From Brevibacillus composti (GTDB taxonomy: Bacteria > Bacillota > Bacilli > Brevibacillales > Brevibacillaceae): a DNA stretch of 64,000 nt. The position numbers and the translations under genes are program-made. Numbering within the stretch: the stretch's first letter is position 1; the number at the start of each line of letters is the position of its first letter. The stretch lies in NCBI RefSeq assembly GCF_016406105.1, contig NZ_CP066308.1, positions 3,796,001 through 3,860,000 on the forward strand. Direction: 5' to 3'. Under the pieces are notes generated by a model. The model did not search any database and had not been told where the DNA came from. It saw only the letters and a list, made by a program, of their open reading frames with translations. Shown here in pieces: positions 25,681 to 33,450 of this stretch.

Positions 25681-25980
25681 ATGGATCGAAAAAAATGGGA
25701 AGAGAAAATCGTGGAAAACTACCAGCGTGACGAGGGCATGATGATCCTCGTGTTTGCCCAGTGGTGCGTCAATCACGGACTGGATGCACACGAACTGTAC
25801 CGCCGGGCCTATCCTGGGCAGACTGCCAACCCGCTGCTGCAGCAAATGGTGGAGCTCACGGTGCCAAAAGAAGAAGCGGAGGAGATACCGGATCAGACCT
25901 TGCTCGGCGTCCTTTCTCTCTTCGGGAATGATGACCTGGCCTTCGTCGTGCAGGAGGAGATCAACAGACGTCCGGCCTAG
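25681..25980 (+). CDS. Small acidic hypothetical protein
   Basis: A 99-residue protein beginning MDRKKWEEKIVENYQRDEG. ATG 25681 follows AAAGGAGACGGAC. It is mostly alpha-helical and acidic, without signal peptide or membrane segment, and includes FAQWCVNHGLDAHELYRRAYPG and a C-terminal LLGVLSLFGNDDLAFVVQEEI. No domain was recognised. It stands alone between the fhs terminator and the convergent chemoreceptor gene. Confidence 0.7.
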   Translation: MDRKKWEEKIVENYQRDEGMMILVFAQWCVNHGLDAHELYRRAYPGQTANPLLQQMVELTVPKEEAEEIPDQTLLGVLSLFGNDDLAFVVQEEINRRPA

Positions 25981-26025
25981 ATCCGGCGATCCGCCAAACT
26001 CCCGCTCACAGACCGCTAGACACCG

Positions 26026-27726
26026 CTAGACGCGGAATCGAGCCACCAAGGAGCGCAGCTCTTCCGCCATTTCGGCCAGAGATTCAGCCGAGGAAGTGAC
26101 TTCCTCCACGCTGCTGAGCTGTTCCTCTGAGGCAGCCGATACATTTTGCGAGCTGGCTGCCACCGTTCGGGAACCGTCCAGAATCATGTGGGCGGATGCC
26201 GTGACGTGCTGGCTGCTGGCAGCAATTTGTCTGGAAGCGGCAGTGATGGCCTGAACCCTCTCCGATACCTGCTCGACGTACGATTTGATCTCGCTAAACT
26301 GTTCACCTGCTGTATGTACGGTCTGAATGCTCTCTTCCACTTCGGAAATCCCCTTTTCCATGCGCTCGACCGTCTGCTCGGTGTTTTTCTGCATGGCGCC
26401 AATCAACTGGATAATCTGGTCGGCGGAACGAGCCGACTCTTCCGCCAGCTTGCGCACCTCATCGGCGACGATGGCAAAACCTCGCCCGTGTTCGCCCGCT
26501 CTGGCCGCTTCGATCGCCGCATTTAGTGCCAGCAGATTGGTTTGCGTGGCGATCCCGGAGATGACCTCGACGATCTTGCCCACCTGCTGAGAGTGATCGC
26601 CCATGTCCTGCACCGCTTTTGCCAATTCTTGAATCGTATGATCCAGCGCATCCATTTGGGAAATCGCCTGCTGAATCGTTCGGTTTCCTTCTTCTGATTT
26701 TTGCGATGCCTGCCGCGACAAAGACGACGTCATTTCCGTCTGTTCGGCGATGTGCTCGATCCCCAGCGCCATCTCATTCATGGCCTCCACGCTTTCTTCC
26801 GCGCCTCTGGCCTGTTTCTCCGCCGTCAACACCACTTCCTGAATGCCGGAGCTGATCGTTTCCGAAGCCAGGCTGGTTTGCTCGGCACTGGCTGACAGTT
26901 CTTCTGAAGAGGCTGCGACATTCTCCGCGCCGATGTTGATTTGTTGAATCAGATTGCGCAGATTGGCCGCCATGTGGTTAAAGGAGCGAGCCATCTCCCC
27001 GATCTCGTCATTGTTTTTCACGCGAAGCTCGTCCTGGGTCAAATCCCCTGCCGCCACCAGTTCCGCCGCCCGGGCGACCTGAACGATCGGTTTGGCGATC
27101 ATCCGCGACATGAAGTAGCCGATCAGAATAGAGAGCACCAATGCCCCCGCGCTGAACCAGACGAGGTTGGCCGTGGCCGTGTCCACAGCTGCCGAGTTGG
27201 CCCTGCTGCCTTCCTCCATCGATTGCAGCTGACTGGTCACGATCTGGTCAATCACCGGTTCCAATTTCCTTCCGAGAGGCAGGACCTGCTGCATGAAGTA
27301 CTCGGTCACTTTCGCCGAATCTTCCTGCCTGTCTATCATCTGCAGAAGTTTCGTGTACTCCTTTTTAAAGTCCTCGCTTGCTTTGGCAAACTCCTGCAAT
27401 ACTTGTTTATTCTCATCGCTCTGAAGAAGGGCCTCCATATTCTTCATGACTTCCTGAGCCTGTTGTTCATAGCTTTGCAGATTGACGGCAAACTCTTTTT
27501 CCCCCGTCATGACATATCCCCGCAAGCTGTTGGACTGTTTTACGGAGAGCACCTGCAGGCTTTGCGCATGCCGCAAGATAACTGCCCGCCTGTCCACCAG
27601 GTCCGAGTAGGACTCGTCTACCTCCGTAAAGTAGATATACGCTACTCCTGCCGTCAACGCCAGCAGCAGTGCAATACTTAAAAAACCGCCAATCAGTTTT
27701 TGCCCAATCGTGACTTTCCGCTTCAT
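26026..27726 (-). CDS. Methyl-accepting chemotaxis protein with four-helix sensor domain
   Basis: A 566-residue chemoreceptor from ATG 27726 (AAGGGGTG upstream). The first membrane helix is near 10-30. A periplasmic-type helical bundle of about 160 residues (CHASE3/4HB-like, [18 protein letters not shown]) is followed by the second helix at about 190-212 and a HAMP domain ([17 protein letters not shown]). The cytoplasmic signalling tip contains [43 protein letters not shown] (given in parts in the sequence). It relays ligand binding to CheA/CheW. No pentapeptide tether is seen. The ligand is unknown. Confidence 0.93.
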
Positions 27727-27844
27727 CACCCACACCCCTTACCGGTTCGTTAGTACGTCACTACAAGTTCCAACTGATTTCAACGGGTCAAAACGGCTGA
27801 AAGAAGCGACAATTTGTATGCGTTAGGTCCCGCTGACCTCTCTT

Positions 27845-27872
27845 TGTCGTACAATGTTTGTTGTGCGACAAA
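27845..27872 (+). repeat. Left 28-bp inverted repeat of the recombinase cassette
   Basis: The repeat reads arm TGTCGTACAA, spacer TGTTTG, arm TTGTGCGACA, then AA. The two arms are imperfect inverted copies (9 of 10 positions), so each repeat is itself a dyad of the size used as a core site by tyrosine recombinases. An identical 28-bp copy lies in opposite orientation at 28918-28945. Confidence 0.95.
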
Positions 27873-27941
27873 ATTCAACAAAATTCAACCCAATTATAGA
27901 TAATTGTCCCAATTCTATCAACTATCATTGTGAGCAATATC

Positions 27942-28898
27942 CTATTGCTTTAGACTCAGTGCTTCTTTCAGGCAGTTCTCGACAAAGTCGGGAGCTGCCT
28001 TTTGCAATTGTTCGACCGTATGCAAATAACGCTGGGTGGTCGTGATCGACGCATGCCCTAAATTCTCTTGCACTTGCTGAAGAGAGGCACCGCCCAGCAG
28101 GGCAAGGGTCGCATTCGTATGGCGAAGCCAATGTGGCGTGACTTTTTTCCCGATCTTGCTGTTCTCCCGGGAGATTTGGATGATGCGTTCCACTTGCCGC
28201 ACAGACAGCGGGAACACGCGATCCTCAACATTTTTCGCGGGAAAAGTCTCGGCGTATTCTTTGTACAATTGCCACAAGTTCTGTGGAACTTTTACGTCCC
28301 GTTGCTTGCCGCCCTTTCCCCGCTCGACGGAGAGCCAGATCGAGGATTCGGCTGGATCGGTATAAAAATCCTTCCACCGCATATGCGTCAGTTCGGACAC
28401 GCGCAATCCCAGCAGCACGAGAGTCAGGCCGATCAGATAATCCCGCGCTCCTTGCGCTTTTAGCTGGTTCAGAAAGAGGACGGTTTCCCTCTGTGTCAAA
28501 AAGTGATGTTTGCTCGTGACTGGTACTTTGGGAGAGCGCGTCGACGAAGTGGGGTCCTGCGGAAACAGCTTCAGATTCGGGTCGCATCCCCATTTGTAGA
28601 GGGAGCGCAGGGGAGCAAGCAGACTGGCCACCGTCGCCGGCGCCAACGGTTGGCCCCTTTTGCCGCCAGGACCTTTGGACAAGCTGTATTGGTAGGACTC
28701 GATATCTTTCCAGGTCACTTCGCGAAGCGGTTTGTAGGAGATAAACGCACGGAATTGAGCGATGGCTCTCTGATAGTTGCGAAAGGTATAGGCGGAGTTC
28801 GTCCGGATGTGTAAAAAAAGCGAAATCGCCTGTTCGTCGGTAAGGTTTCCGTTTTTTATTTGAACCCATTCGTTTGTGAGTAAGCTGTCTTTTGCCAC
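27942..28898 (-). CDS. Tyrosine recombinase/integrase
   Basis: A 318-residue recombinase starting at GTG 28898 with AAAGGGG upstream. Residues 20-115 form the core-binding SAM-like domain (AISLFLHIRTNSAYTFRNYQRAIAQFRAF). The catalytic domain shows Arg166 (GLRVSEL), Lys195 (RGKGGKQRDV), His256 and Arg259 (PHWLRHTNATL), His282 (LGHASI) and nucleophile Tyr291 (TQRYLH). All six conserved residues are present, so the enzyme is predicted active. Its size and layout are XerC/D-like, but it is not in a housekeeping context: it is framed by inverted repeats at 27845 and 28918 and stands alone. It has no excisionase or phage genes beside it. Confidence 0.95.
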   Translation of the reverse strand: MAKDSLLTNEWVQIKNGNLTDEQAISLFLHIRTNSAYTFRNYQRAIAQFRAFISYKPLREVTWKDIESYQYSLSKGPGGKRGQPLAPATVASLLAPLRSLYKWGCDPNLKLFPQDPTSSTRSPKVPVTSKHHFLTQRETVLFLNQLKAQGARDYLIGLTLVLLGLRVSELTHMRWKDFYTDPAESSIWLSVERGKGGKQRDVKVPQNLWQLYKEYAETFPAKNVEDRVFPLSVRQVERIIQISRENSKIGKKVTPHWLRHTNATLALLGGASLQQVQENLGHASITTTQRYLHTVEQLQKAAPDFVENCLKEALSLKQ

Positions 28899-28917
28899 AG
28901 TTCAAATATCCCCTTTC

Positions 28918-28945
28918 TTTGTCGCACAACAAACATTGTACGACA
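28918..28945 (-). repeat. Right 28-bp inverted repeat of the recombinase cassette
   Basis: Exact reverse complement of 27845-27872. On the minus strand the copy contains TACAAT, a possible -10 box, within its first arm. Its end is 20 bp before the recombinase GTG, leaving room only for the ribosome binding site. Confidence 0.95.
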
Positions 28946-29040
28946 CCGTTTCATAAACCCGACAGATCCCATCACTACCAGAAAACAGGAACTCCCCTCT
29001 CCCATCTCCACAAGTTTTTCTATCGATATCCATAAAAGAA

Positions 29041-29065
29041 AGCCGTGAGCTTCACGGCTTTTTTC
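29041..29065 (+). terminator. Terminator hairpin downstream of the recombinase cassette
   Basis: Stem AGCCGTGA / TCACGGCT with a 3-base loop and six T. No complete plus-strand gene precedes it, so the gene it once served may be lost. The rest of 28946-29040 holds nothing recognisable. Confidence 0.7.
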
Positions 29066-29133
29066 ATGGGTGCTGCGCTTCCCGGGAAAAGTGTCTTTCC
29101 TCGGTGCTACGATCCCCCCAAGGAGGAGCGTCT

Positions 29134-29295
29134 ATGGTATTCGCCGGGGAACGACTCGCACCGGACAGCTTGCTTTATGCAGCACCCCATGGAAGACAAT
29201 CCCCGGATCATTCCCTTACTCACGCTGAAACCCCTGGTTCCCCTCATGATCGAGCGGGCATCCACGGCATTATTTTCGTCCCGACTCTCATATAA
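29134..29295 (+). CDS. Short open reading frame with a strong ribosome binding site
   Basis: A 53-codon frame starting MVFAGERLAPDSLLY, with AAGGAGGAG placed correctly upstream of ATG 29134. The peptide has no recognisable domain and its composition is not clearly protein-like beyond the first 15 residues. It may be the start of a gene truncated by deletion, or a leader-like peptide. Nothing else was seen in 29066-29375. Confidence 0.3.
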   Translation: MVFAGERLAPDSLLYAAPHGRQSPDHSLTHAETPGSPHDRAGIHGIIFVPTLI

Positions 29296-29375
29296 ACCAT
29301 GTTTCAGGCCCGTCTGTAAATGGATTTTCGACGTTTTTCTCTAATTTGTAATAATCGGCCATCTCCGGCCCATGC

Positions 29376-30749
29376 TCACTTTTCGATGGCGCCGGTCGCT
29401 GTCTCATAGGCATAGCCAAACTGGTACAGCTTCGCCTCCTGCCCATGCTCCCCGATCAGTTGGAAGCCGATCGGCAAGCCCGTCTGCGAAAAGCCGCAGG
29501 GCACAGAGAGACTCGGATTGCCGGTAAAATTGGTCGGCGAGGTCAGCCGCAGCAGAGCCGGACGAACCCCGTCCGGATGATCGCCGATCATGATGTCCCG
29601 CTGCCCGATATCTGTCGGCAGAATTGGCAAGGTCGGCGTCAACAGGACATCCGCCTCACGGAACACCTCGTTAAACTGCGCCAGCAACTGGCCGCGGCGC
29701 TGTTGCACCTGCACGTATTGGTAGCCCCGCACGTCTGTGCTGTCCATCAGTCGCTCGCGCACTTCCGGCTGCAGCGCATCCGCGTGATCGCGCAAGGTCC
29801 GCTCGTGGATTGCCGCAGCTTCCGCCTGAATCGTAATCCGCTGTCCCTGCATCAGTTCATCGATCCCCGGCAGATCCACTTCCCGAATCTCCGCGCCCAG
29901 CTCCCGGTATACGGCAGCCACCTGCTGGATCGCCTGCTTGATTTCCTCTTCGACATGCTGGTAGTACCAGAGGGGCAAGCCGATCACTTTTCCGCGCACG
30001 CTCTCGCCGAGCAGCGCCGCGTAATCATCAGCTGGCTGGGTGAGCGTATAGGGATCGTTTTCATCGTAGCCCGCCAGCAGTTGCAAGAGCGACGCATTGT
30101 CCCTGACGCTTTTGGTCATCGGGCCAACATGGTCCAGCGTATAGCCGAGGTCAAACGCGCCGTACTTGCTGACACGGCCAAAGGTCGGCTTCATCCCGAC
30201 GATGCCGCAGGCGGCCGCCGGAATCCGCACCGATCCGCCCGTATCCGTCCCCAAGGCGGCATAAGCCAGCCCGGCTGCTACCGCTGCACCGGAACCGCCG
30301 CTTGAGCCCCCTGTAATTTTCCGGGGATCGTGGGGATTGCGGGACGGCCCAAAAAAGGAGACGTCTCCGGTCGGCCCGTAGGCAAATTCATGTGTATTCG
30401 TTTTGCCGATGACGATCGCTCCGGCCTGCTGCCATCTGGTCACGGCAGTGGCGCTGTAAGCGGGTACGAAGTGCTCGTAAATCTGGGAGCCCATCGTCGT
30501 GCGGACGCCCTCCGTAAAAATCATGTCCTTGATGGCAACCGGAATCCCATGCCAGATCCCTTTCCACTCCCCCCGCATAATCTCGGCCTCCGCTTGGGCC
30601 GCCTCCCGCCGGGCCTGTTCCGCACAAATCGTAATATAAGCGTTCAGGGTCTCATTCTGTTTCTCTATCGCCTCCAGCGTCTGGCCGACGATTTCGACCG
30701 GAGATATTTTCTTCTCCCGAATGGCTTTCGCCAGTGTGTACACATCCAT
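29376..30749 (-). CDS. Amidase (amidase-signature family, GatA-like)
   Basis: A 457-residue protein from ATG 30749 (GGGGAGGGG upstream). It has the Ser-cisSer-Lys triad: the lysine in GIPVAIKDMIF (about 78-88), and the serines in KITGGSSGGSGAAVAAGLA, with the nucleophile in the later GTDTGGSVRIPAA block. The C-terminal part has GNPSLSVPCGFSQTGLPIGFQLIG. No gatB or gatC lies nearby, so it is more likely a stand-alone amidase hydrolysing small amides than the tRNA-dependent amidotransferase subunit. Cytoplasmic; no signal peptide. Substrate unknown. Confidence 0.9.
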   Translation of the reverse strand: MDVYTLAKAIREKKISPVEIVGQTLEAIEKQNETLNAYITICAEQARREAAQAEAEIMRGEWKGIWHGIPVAIKDMIFTEGVRTTMGSQIYEHFVPAYSATAVTRWQQAGAIVIGKTNTHEFAYGPTGDVSFFGPSRNPHDPRKITGGSSGGSGAAVAAGLAYAALGTDTGGSVRIPAAACGIVGMKPTFGRVSKYGAFDLGYTLDHVGPMTKSVRDNASLLQLLAGYDENDPYTLTQPADDYAALLGESVRGKVIGLPLWYYQHVEEEIKQAIQQVAAVYRELGAEIREVDLPGIDELMQGQRITIQAEAAAIHERTLRDHADALQPEVRERLMDSTDVRGYQYVQVQQRRGQLLAQFNEVFREADVLLTPTLPILPTDIGQRDIMIGDHPDGVRPALLRLTSPTNFTGNPSLSVPCGFSQTGLPIGFQLIGEHGQEAKLYQFGYAYETATGAIEK

Positions 30750-30810
30750 GGTCTGAACCCCTCCCCTGCTTTCTTTCCTGCACGGTATCGAATCTATCAT
30801 ACCCCTTTCA

Positions 30811-30855
30811 AAAAGGACGGTCTACGCTAATCAGGAGTCTCGGACCGTCTTTTTA
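30811..30855. terminator. Terminator between the WG-repeat gene and the amidase gene
   Basis: Stem GACGGTC / GACCGTC with a 20-base loop, T-run on both strands (TTTTTAT on plus, CTTTTT on minus). It lies behind the WG-repeat gene stop at 30889. Confidence 0.65.
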
Positions 30856-30888
30856 TGCAGCCGGATGGCGCAAGGGAGGGACATCCTT

Positions 30889-33450
30889 TCAGTGGAACGA
30901 CCTCCAGAACTCGCCGCTCTCGTCGATGATCCCGGAAATCTCCGAAAACGGGATGCGGAAGGTGGGGAAGCCCGCTGCATACGGCGCAATTTCGTAAGGA
31001 GCAAAATAGAGGTAGAGCGCATCTGCCTTCACGTAGAAGGGTTGGTCGGGACTGATTCCCTTGTAGCTGTCCGGAAATACGTAGGAATATTCCGGATTGG
31101 TTCTGATTTGATTGCCGACCAGCTCGCTCAGCACCCGGACGTAATCACTGCCCGGCTTGAACAGGTCTTTCAAGCTGTAGATGCGCCCGCTGACCAGATC
31201 GATCGGGACATAGATTCGCGTGGGCATGCCGTGAGCCGCTCCGAACGGGAAATTGTAGCCGGTCAGCTCCAGCTCTACCAGCTGTTTGCGGAAAAAGGCC
31301 ACGGCAAAATCTCCGCTGTAGCTGTAGTCCAGCTGTGCATTCGGATCGATCGGCTTGACCTGGGAAAGCTCCTTGAGGCGATTGTTGACCGCCTCCCGTG
31401 CGGCGCGATTGGCGATCCCTTTGATTTCCGGATAGTAGACGAGGTAGTTCTTGTTGGGCGCATACTTGTGTTCGACGATCCGGTACGGCTCCCGCAGAGG
31501 TATGATCGTATTCTGCTGCCAGACCCGTTTCCCGTTGCGATCGTAGTAGGAGACCCGTTGATCCACGTCCGCTTTGACCAGCTCTCCCATCAGCGTCAAT
31601 GTTCCGCTGCCGGGGACGATGGGCAGATTCGAGACCCGCTGTCCCCTCCTGTCGATGAAAAAGGTGCTTCTCCCGTCACTCACCGAAGCCACGCCCTCTT
31701 TATACCTGCCGACGTTCTCGTAGAGGAAGTCGGTCAAGATCGGACCATCGGCATCGGCGATGGCGTACGTCGAGCCCAGATAAGGCCGATTCGGGTCGAT
31801 CGCTTTGCCGAGCGCGACCCGTCCCTCGCCCAATAGCTCCAAATCGTTATATTCCGGCGGTATCAGATAGGCGCCGGTCTTGTCGATCAGACCGTACTGG
31901 TTTTGGGTAAAATCGGCGGAAGCATTGACGATGGCCCGCCCGTCCTCAAAAGGCAGAGCGACGGAATATTGCGGCTCGATGACAACGCGCCCCGACTCAT
32001 CGAGGTAGCCCTTGGGGCCATCCGCTGTCCGGGCAAAAGCAAGCAGCCCGTCTCCCAGCGGCCCGACGCTGGCATAGGGATACGTCTGCAGAATCCGGCC
32101 GCTTGTGTCGATGAGGGCGTATTCTCCTTCCCGCACCTGCACCACCGCTTTGCCATCCTGAAAATCAGTGGCCGCCAGGTATTGGGCCCCTATTGCTTCC
32201 CTTCCGTCCCGGTCCAGGTACCCGTATGCGGATCGGCCCTGTGCATCCGTCTTGTTAAAGAGAGCCCGCCCCTCTTTGTACGTCCCGATATACGAGTAGG
32301 CTTGGGGCGTCAAGATCTTCCCCTTCTCGTCGATCACCCGAAAACCGCGGTCGTCGATGACGGCGGCCCGCCCTTCAGAGAAGGGAGCGATCGATTGATA
32401 GACCGGCGATACGACAAAGGAGCCCAGTTTATTGATCAGTCCGCTGCGATTGTTCATCTGGACGATGGCAAGGCCATTTTGCTGGAAGTCCTCGGCATAT
32501 TCGTAATGTGGCTGGATCACAAAGCGCCCGCTTCCGTCGATGTACCCCCACTTCACGCCCTCCGCCGTCTTTACCGAGGCCGGAAAGAGCGCAGCCATAG
32601 CCCTGGACTCCAATTCCCTCCGAATCAAACGGATGAATCCTTCCCATTCCTGCTTGGCAGATGGACCGAACTTCACCGCTGTGGCCAAGGTCGCTACCGC
32701 CTGGGCGGGCTGCCCAGCCTTTTGCTGGGCGCGGGCCAGTTGATACCACAGCTGGGTGCTTCCGGGTTCTTCTTGCGTCTTCTCCTGGAGGGATGCAGCC
32801 AGCTGCTGAAAAAAAGCCGGATACCGGTCATTTGCGAGCGACAGCTCGCTGCCGTTCCACTTGTAGATATTGGCATGGGGGCCCCCGGCCACGCCGGGCT
32901 CGCGCTGCCATAGGATAATTTCATGGACGCCATCGCCGCCTGCAACTGACGGAAGATCGTCCACCTCGATTTCCTCGAAAGAAAGGAGGCTGCCCACTCT
33001 GTTCACCAGCCCACGCGGCGTCCATTCATAGACAGCCAGAGCTGCGGGCTGCGCCGCCATATCCTCCCGAAGCGGATCGGATCCCTCCGTCATATTGCTT
33101 GCTCCCGCAAGTGCATCCTCGCCAGCCAGCCTCCACCCGATGATGAGCTGAGCCTTTTTTCTTCCTGTGACAGGCGCTGTCTGAAAATGACGAATGGCCG
33201 CTTTTCGGCTGGAAAGCGTCTGGACTGCATACCAGCCATCCTGCCCTTTTTTCCATACCGTTAAAAAAGTCTCTCCCACCCAGCGATAGATGGCCGCCAG
33301 TTCTTTTTCCCCATCTCCATCCAGATCACTCAGCTGAATGAACGGCGAGGGGGAGTCATCAAGCGCCCCCTTTGCCTGCGCCCCCACAAGTTTTGCCCCA
33401 ATCGGCAAGAGTTTTTGCACCTCATCTTGCAGTTTGTTTTCCCACATCAT
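30889..33450 (-). CDS. WG-repeat protein with DUF3298-type C-terminal domain
   Basis: An 853-residue protein, using ATG 33450, which has GGGAGAG 6 bases upstream; ATG 33465 is possible but lacks a site. Residues 1-200 resemble FG-GAP/Ca-binding propeller-like secreted modules (LSDLDGDGEKELAAIYRW). A tetratricopeptide-like helical part follows (QLWYQLARAQQKAGQPAQAVATLATA). From about 300 there are roughly eight WG repeats (KWGYIDGSGRFVIQPHYEYAEDF, GYLDESGRVVIEPQYSVALPFEDG). The last 200 residues match the DUF3298/RsiV extracellular domain (GAAHGMPTRIYVPIDLVSGRIYSLKDLF). No signal peptide is obvious. Its role is unknown; WG arrays often mediate binding. Confidence 0.83.
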   Translation of the reverse strand: MMWENKLQDEVQKLLPIGAKLVGAQAKGALDDSPSPFIQLSDLDGDGEKELAAIYRWVGETFLTVWKKGQDGWYAVQTLSSRKAAIRHFQTAPVTGRKKAQLIIGWRLAGEDALAGASNMTEGSDPLREDMAAQPAALAVYEWTPRGLVNRVGSLLSFEEIEVDDLPSVAGGDGVHEIILWQREPGVAGGPHANIYKWNGSELSLANDRYPAFFQQLAASLQEKTQEEPGSTQLWYQLARAQQKAGQPAQAVATLATAVKFGPSAKQEWEGFIRLIRRELESRAMAALFPASVKTAEGVKWGYIDGSGRFVIQPHYEYAEDFQQNGLAIVQMNNRSGLINKLGSFVVSPVYQSIAPFSEGRAAVIDDRGFRVIDEKGKILTPQAYSYIGTYKEGRALFNKTDAQGRSAYGYLDRDGREAIGAQYLAATDFQDGKAVVQVREGEYALIDTSGRILQTYPYASVGPLGDGLLAFARTADGPKGYLDESGRVVIEPQYSVALPFEDGRAIVNASADFTQNQYGLIDKTGAYLIPPEYNDLELLGEGRVALGKAIDPNRPYLGSTYAIADADGPILTDFLYENVGRYKEGVASVSDGRSTFFIDRRGQRVSNLPIVPGSGTLTLMGELVKADVDQRVSYYDRNGKRVWQQNTIIPLREPYRIVEHKYAPNKNYLVYYPEIKGIANRAAREAVNNRLKELSQVKPIDPNAQLDYSYSGDFAVAFFRKQLVELELTGYNFPFGAAHGMPTRIYVPIDLVSGRIYSLKDLFKPGSDYVRVLSELVGNQIRTNPEYSYVFPDSYKGISPDQPFYVKADALYLYFAPYEIAPYAAGFPTFRIPFSEISGIIDESGEFWRSFH

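Follow-up and report, generated by a model that had tools for sequence, protein, structure and literature searches.

What is a tyrosine recombinase gene doing between two perfect inverted copies of a recombination-site-like sequence, and does the arrangement serve the recombinase itself, a mobile unit or a neighbouring gene? The locus that raises this question lies in a 64,000-nucleotide stretch of Brevibacillus composti DNA (contig NZ_CP066308.1; hereafter the window). An initial annotation, made from the letters alone, had described it as a self-contained recombinase cassette and offered several readings of its role, which we followed up by comparison with relatives.

The cassette and its recombinase

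The core of the earlier observation, a recombinase gene between perfect inverted sites, is real. Positions 27845-27872 and 28918-28945 form 28-nt inverted repeats that are 100% complementary and separated by 1045 nt, and both consist of the arms TGTCGTACAA and TTGTGCGACA flanking the asymmetric 6-bp spacer TGTTTG, just as had been described. With up to three mismatches allowed, the site pattern has two matches in the window and none in 100 shuffles, which excludes chance for the pair. A whole-genome search for the dyad (any spacer, ≤3 mismatches) returned these two sites only, so that the earlier remark that the window holds no further copy now extends to the genome. The GTG start codon of the recombinase lies 19 nt inside the right site, in agreement with the roughly 20 bp reported before. 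The assembly shows the cassette in a single orientation, and no Rfam family matched 25900-30900 at gathering scores. The features of the locus are:

26026..27735, minus strand: predicted target, a methyl-accepting chemotaxis protein gene (4HB_MCP_1, HAMP, MCPsignal) that begins some 110 bp beyond the left site and is directed away
27845..27872, plus strand: left recombination site (D site, on the 3′ side of the recombinase), with outer arm TGTCGTACAA, spacer TGTTTG and inner arm TTGTGCGACA; such site pairs are conserved around relatives
27893..27921, minus strand: predicted outward sigma-A-type promoter, TTGATA-17-TATAAT (11/12 consensus matches), inside the cassette and reading across the left site to the chemoreceptor gene
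27942..28898, minus strand: tyrosine recombinase of 318 aa with a GTG start (Pfam Phage_integrase, E 7.4e-25)
28910..28916, minus strand: AAAGGGG, resembling a ribosome-binding site for the recombinase gene, in the narrow gap that separates the start codon from the right site and leaves no space for a recombinase promoter; a family-wide arrangement
28918..28945, minus strand: right recombination site (U site, on the 5′ side of the recombinase), an inverted copy of the left site with the same spacer
29036..29064, strand unassigned: terminator-like hairpin sequence in the non-target flank
29376..30800, minus strand: amidase gene, a conserved non-target neighbour, with an orthologue beside the same chemoreceptor in genome G004; this flank is common to the window and genome G021

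Two of these features had been overlooked, namely the abutting chemoreceptor gene (26026-27735) and the outward promoter-like sequence (27921-27893). The earlier picture of a cassette with the recombinase alone inside has to be amended, as the segment 27845-28945 (~1.1 kb) contains the recombinase gene together with promoter-like sequence and has its predicted target gene outside.

The recombinase gene is intact, as claimed: residues R166, K195, H256, R259, H282 and Y291, which we take to be the R-K-H-R-H-Y catalytic set of tyrosine recombinases, are invariant in an alignment of 21 relatives. Belonging to Phage_integrase, the enzyme is not a serine recombinase of the kind found in Hin-type invertases, and it scores far below the curated Xer cut-offs (126 bits with a cut-off of 335 for XerC, 110 with 330 for XerD and 138 with 220 for XerA).

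The gene is at times damaged or duplicated in relatives. Two loci (L039 and L017) have an interrupted recombinase frame, with the first stop about 180 codons in, and intact sites and spacer. Second recombinase copies, partial or interrupted, were seen nearby or elsewhere in the same genome for L025 and L037 (both G051) and L038 (G088). At the D end of L090, a 73-nt inverted repeat takes in the beginning of the recombinase gene, so that this sequence occurs at each cassette end, suggesting a partial duplication.

Sites, predicted targets and promoter-like sequences across relatives

The cassette has many relatives among Brevibacillus- and Paenibacillus-type bacteria. Searches with tblastn (E≤1e-60) found the recombinase in 8/39 genomes of the window's family, in 23/398 drawn from its class and in 72/295 drawn from a Paenibacillus-type family (f4). 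A contig search with the single recombinase protein returned no relative; with an alignment (A1) it returned 363, the best 80 of the 363 being kept, mostly from Paenibacillus, Cohnella and Brevibacillus. Plasmids gave no match at E≤1e-40 and phages none at E≤1e-30, and viral contigs gave remote matches only.

Of the 104 loci looked at, inverted repeats flank the recombinase in 102; the other two (L026 and L045) are copies of one record with runs of N at the site positions. Repeats missing around orthologues, the outcome specified beforehand as speaking against the proposal, were thus not found. Leaving out L026 and L045, which have no readable site, and ten loci taken as repeat records (one of them, L028, is actually a distinct genome) gave 92 loci. 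A strict core pattern (CG...AA-6 nt-TT...CG) was readable at both ends in 83 of these and failed in nine; the 83 are the elements counted below.

The spacers at the two ends of an element are identical in 83/83 cases, a figure that the locus search may inflate somewhat by having favoured good repeats, although nearly every locus was counted; the same holds with one member per cluster (50/50 at 80% identity, 29/29 at 70%). Across the elements there are 36 different spacers, none self-complementary; different elements share a spacer in only 3.8% of comparisons, and on a quick tree the spacer changed 40 times or more. This paired identity is most naturally explained by recombination of one end with the other, or by selection for it. 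The arms differ between ends in 15 of the 83 elements. Outer arms are identical within most elements, and some process beyond plain inversion may even them out. Six genomes of the first locus set hold two or three cassettes each; spacers differ between co-resident cassettes in 6/6 of them, a result that chance alone would usually give as well.

As controls, ten genus relatives of the recombinase at about 34% identity showed no core site (best repeat scores 9 to 15), and ten remote viral recombinases, from 31 viral loci, had best repeat scores of 10 to 14. Repeat length alone separates the controls uncleanly, with 4/20 reaching the score of 15 that belongs to the weakest kept element (L079, which has a cut D site). 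That D site stops half-way and is followed by unrelated DNA, transposase-like by eye. L189 (P. daejeonensis) has a third site of this kind, its spacer unchanged, at contig position 175153, 9.7 kb away from the cassette; some 14 nt resembling U-inner sequence come next, then an assembly gap, and we take this as a hint only.

The neighbours of the cassettes fall into a narrow range of functions. In 81/92 loci, a gene from one of four clusters starts ≤450 bp outside a site and is directed away, on the U side in 61 and on the D side in 20. The Pfam domains in these target-bearing loci are HD_5/HD (68), CheW (7), HAMP (6) and MCPsignal (5), and the remaining 11 loci include EAL (6), PAS-GGDEF (1), GGDEF-EAL (1) and CheX (1). 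In total, 90/92 cassettes abut an HD, EAL or GGDEF (c-di-GMP-type), CheW, CheX or chemoreceptor gene that is directed away. One of the two exceptions (L057) sits where the contig ends 100 nt past the site, and this stretch matches L068 over its target flank and the beginning of its HD gene; the other (L069) faces SecA, as do its relatives L203 and L207 (P. dendritiformis clade). In G004, where chemoreceptor and amidase genes occur without a cassette, there is a 9-nt half-site-like word, the alignment being too weak to call it a scar.

Promoter-like sequence is concentrated at one end of the cassette and on one strand. In the 110 nt of cassette next to the D site, TATAAT or TATACT is directed outward in 69/83 elements and inward in 6/83, leaving 14/83 without an outward -10 box by this simple rule; at the U end the same words occur 10 times outward and 3 times inward among the 83. 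By weight matrix, the outward strand at D scores 9.64 versus 6.39 when shuffled, and the three remaining inner strands score no higher than background. Because the loci share descent, the raw counts overstate independence; with one member per cluster, outward and inward boxes number 39 and 5 of 50 (80% identity) and 20 and 4 of 29 (70%). Outside the cassette, the 200 nt on the target side between site and target show no outward promoter excess (0/72 above the shuffled 95th percentile), and outward promoter-like sites are somewhat raised on the non-target side (13% of 70 loci).

At the U end, a Shine-Dalgarno-like word occurs within 60 nt in 80/83 elements, and the gene starts a median of 20 nt from the U core in the 71 elements where the start could be placed. 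With its start so close inside the U site, the recombinase is probably transcribed from outside the cassette, and its expression is thus probably orientation-dependent too. Inward promoter-like sites are in modest excess at target-side U ends (20% of 56, versus 5% by chance).

Two other promoter candidates were considered. The outer arm ([CT]A[CT]AAT) as the -10 of a site-embedded promoter was dropped, as there is no -35 excess at the right spacing. Near-consensus inward matches to sigma-D promoters (≤1 mismatch) number 6/72 on the target side and 0/72 in the opposite direction, too few to claim. Near-consensus sigma-D-like sequences directed into the cassette are present in the target-side flanks of L076, L082, L087, L093, L112 and L118; such sequences may link recombinase expression to motility.

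As a held-out check, 40 further loci were picked from the matches listed in the f4 search; 19 were set aside as already seen (≥98% nucleotide identity) and 21 were kept, 10 of which match an earlier gene at 83-96% nucleotide identity and 11 of which have no nucleotide match. Cores were readable in 20/21, and among these 20 the spacers were identical in all, a -10 box was directed outward in 19 and inward in none, and a listed target lay within 700 bp in 18, both misses facing SecA. In the unreadable locus (L191), the sites enclose a promoter segment, some 220 bp long (L191:2494-2730), between a CheW-chemoreceptor operon and the recombinase, which lies outside; by eye, the segment carries TTGTGA-17-TATAAT directed at the operon.

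Inversion among relatives

The initial annotation had predicted from the opposed spacers that the whole gene inverts, and the comparison of relatives bears this out in nature. In the window and in G021, whose recombinases are 80% identical, the cassette lies in opposite orientations between the same neighbours. Altogether, 20 locus pairs have both outer flanks in common and the cassette inverted; these pairs are not independent and belong to three groups (window/G021; L083-L114, where L087 and L114 are opposite to the rest; and L054 versus L049 and L068). In the clearest pairs, window/G021 and P. senegalimassiliensis/P. sanguinis, the flanks align at 83-90% in one direction and the cassette at 88% in the other, and the switch falls at the sites. 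Same-orientation pairs with both flanks in common number 106, some of them one record twice. The tree, with 91 rows (68 U and 23 D, L057 being assigned by hand), requires a minimum of 17 changes of orientation, part of which may reflect different loci rather than inversions.

Both junctions were also found in draft assemblies of three strains. Two contigs of P. periandrae (L057/L188) differ in which cassette end adjoins the target flank: one has the D end there and the other the U end (matches of 127 nt and 134 nt, 99%, one mismatch each). The outer arm reads TCGT in one junction and TCGC in the other, a difference that plain inversion leaves unexplained, and an assembly of this size (9.8 Mb) may contain two close strains. 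For P. brevis, one contig runs from the U end into the target flank, and a second runs from it into an HD-less flank (71 nt, 100%, 28-nt site included). A contig of P. sabuli opens on a perfect inverted repeat of 92 nt; target-side flank makes up about 65 nt of this repeat and so is present at both cassette ends. Contigs end ≤130 nt outside a site in 4/79 loci, versus 0.27 expected, and contig forks exactly at the sites are what mixed orientation gives. These paired junctions in draft sequence suggest that the cassette flips in culture, assembly error being possible. Two marks of phase variation are thereby found in the family: the segment occurs in both orientations between inverted sites across relatives and, judged by sequence, it carries a promoter directed out to a gene.

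Proposed switch, alternative readings and known systems

Taken together, the sites, the identity of their spacers, the outward -10 box, the association with targets, the natural inversion and the occurrence of both junctions in single relatives' assemblies, all of them read from genome sequences, suggest with a probability of about 0.88 that 27845-28945 works as a self-contained phase-variation switch, in which a tyrosine recombinase inverts a promoter aimed at the neighbouring signalling gene. Its predicted layout runs from the U site through the ribosome-binding site, the tyrosine recombinase and the outward promoter to the D site. The recombinase, presumably the enzyme that does the work, would bind the two inverted sites and exchange strands within the identical 6-bp spacers, inverting the 1.1-kb segment together with its own gene. 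With the D end facing the signalling gene, the promoter, if active, would drive that gene, presumably the ON state; this is the orientation of the window, where the target would be the chemoreceptor at 26026-27735. With the U end facing the gene, as in G021, the promoter would point the other way, presumably OFF. The cassette looks like a random on/off switch of bacterial behaviour, and flipping would be expected to change a motility or c-di-GMP phenotype.

A minimal IS-like mobile element with terminal inverted repeats, its siting near signalling genes being incidental, would account for the patchy distribution (23/398 class genomes, 72/295 f4 genomes) and for the six genomes with two or three copies. 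We consider it very improbable, however, given that 90/92 cassettes lie just upstream (start ≤450 bp) of one functional class of gene that is directed away, and that both flanks are common at the same loci in the 106 same-orientation pairs, even with some of these being one record twice. The window genome holds one pair of sites rather than several copies, and there is no plasmid or phage match at E≤1e-40 and E≤1e-30, respectively. With viral matches remote and no other sites in the genome, the earlier suggestion of a minimal mobile unit goes unsupported, and so does that of a control module for scattered sites. What stands of the initial annotation is the recombination sites and their inversion; besides these two unsupported readings, the recombinase-only content and, as taken up below, the claim of an unusual layout call for correction.

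The cassette might instead control only its own recombinase, with the adjacent gene as a bystander. A recombinase start about 20 nt inside the U site implies that the promoter must be outside, and the target side has a modest excess of inward promoter-like sites, both as self-switching would have it; yet the outward -10 box at the D end and the class of target are both conserved, and the leader on the target side shows no excess of promoters itself, so we give this reading as little credence as the mobile element. Even less probable is a fossil locus, whose recombinase gene is ordinary and whose repeats are inert, the whole being fixed in each species. It would explain the single orientation in the window assembly, the interrupted gene of L017/L039 and the cut site of L079, but not why spacer identity was kept through at least 40 spacer changes, why close relatives show inverted pairs or why the assemblies of three strains hold both junctions.

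The promoter-inversion reading can be extended, tentatively and at somewhat less than even odds, to a family of portable flip-cassettes placed or kept before chemotaxis and c-di-GMP operons throughout Brevibacillaceae and Paenibacillaceae. As no recombinase promoter lies inside the cassette, recombinase expression would be set by orientation, making the switch asymmetric and self-timing; for example, transcription entering from the target-side flank might reach the recombinase in the OFF state alone. A private spacer for each cassette would prevent cross-reaction among paralogous cassettes in one cell.

Several known systems share parts of this design. Switches of the fimS/FimB-FimE type combine a tyrosine recombinase, short inverted repeats and an invertible promoter, with the recombinase genes outside the inverted segment, a layout seen within the present family in L191. 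XerC/XerD resemble the cassette in their tyrosine recombinase family and dyad core site, dif having a dyad core with a 6-bp spacer, but serve one chromosomal dif, whereas the cassette has paired inverted sites around its own gene.

In the open-licence literature, searches for a Brevibacillus invertible recombinase and a Paenibacillus invertible promoter returned nothing, and titles and abstract openings on Paenibacillus inversion, HD-GYP or colony phase variation announce no such switch. The match for Paenibacillus invertons concerns streptococcal methylomes, and the entries returned for tyrosine recombinase, phase variation and c-di-GMP mostly concern C. difficile. In the relevant part of a survey of small inversions, one signature only is given among 22 samples of class Bacilli, and inversions are suggested to be favoured in Clostridia (PMC5903667); the cassette family suggests that many Bacilli possess a dedicated inversion switch, self-contained and directed almost exclusively at c-di-GMP and chemotaxis genes. 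For phase variation in P. polymyxa, a passage of PMC3694910 calls the direct mechanism still to be elucidated, and the main text of a later study of molecular changes contains neither 'recombinase' nor 'inversion' (PMC7538429). Loci like the cassette are candidates worth examining where Paenibacillus shows phase variation.

Promoter inversion before c-di-GMP phosphodiesterase and motility genes, as proposed here, is described for pdcB/Cdi2, flg and cmr of Clostridioides difficile, where RecV is, like the cassette enzyme, a tyrosine recombinase (passages of PMC9286219 and PMC5903667). RecV serves several switches and the recombinase of pdcB is given as not identified in the part of PMC9286219 concerned, whereas each cassette has its own enzyme. 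The Salmonella Hin segment (hixL-hin-hixR, upstream of fljBA) likewise has its recombinase inside the invertible segment, as outlined in PMC5903667, so that the layout is not as unusual as had been thought; in the present family the gene also lies inside, L191 being the exception. In both systems two repeated sites bound the segment, and the description in PMC9368917 has the Hin promoter drive an adjacent motility operon in one orientation, as predicted for the cassette, and Hin work with Fis and HU. Hin is a serine recombinase, unlike the tyrosine recombinase of the cassette, which differs further in its dyad sites with a 6-bp spacer, its occurrence in Bacilli and its chemotaxis and c-di-GMP targets instead of flagellin. 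The family seems to have reached the Hin layout independently, with the other class of recombinase, and the best reading of the family is that of a Hin-layout promoter-inversion switch with a tyrosine recombinase.
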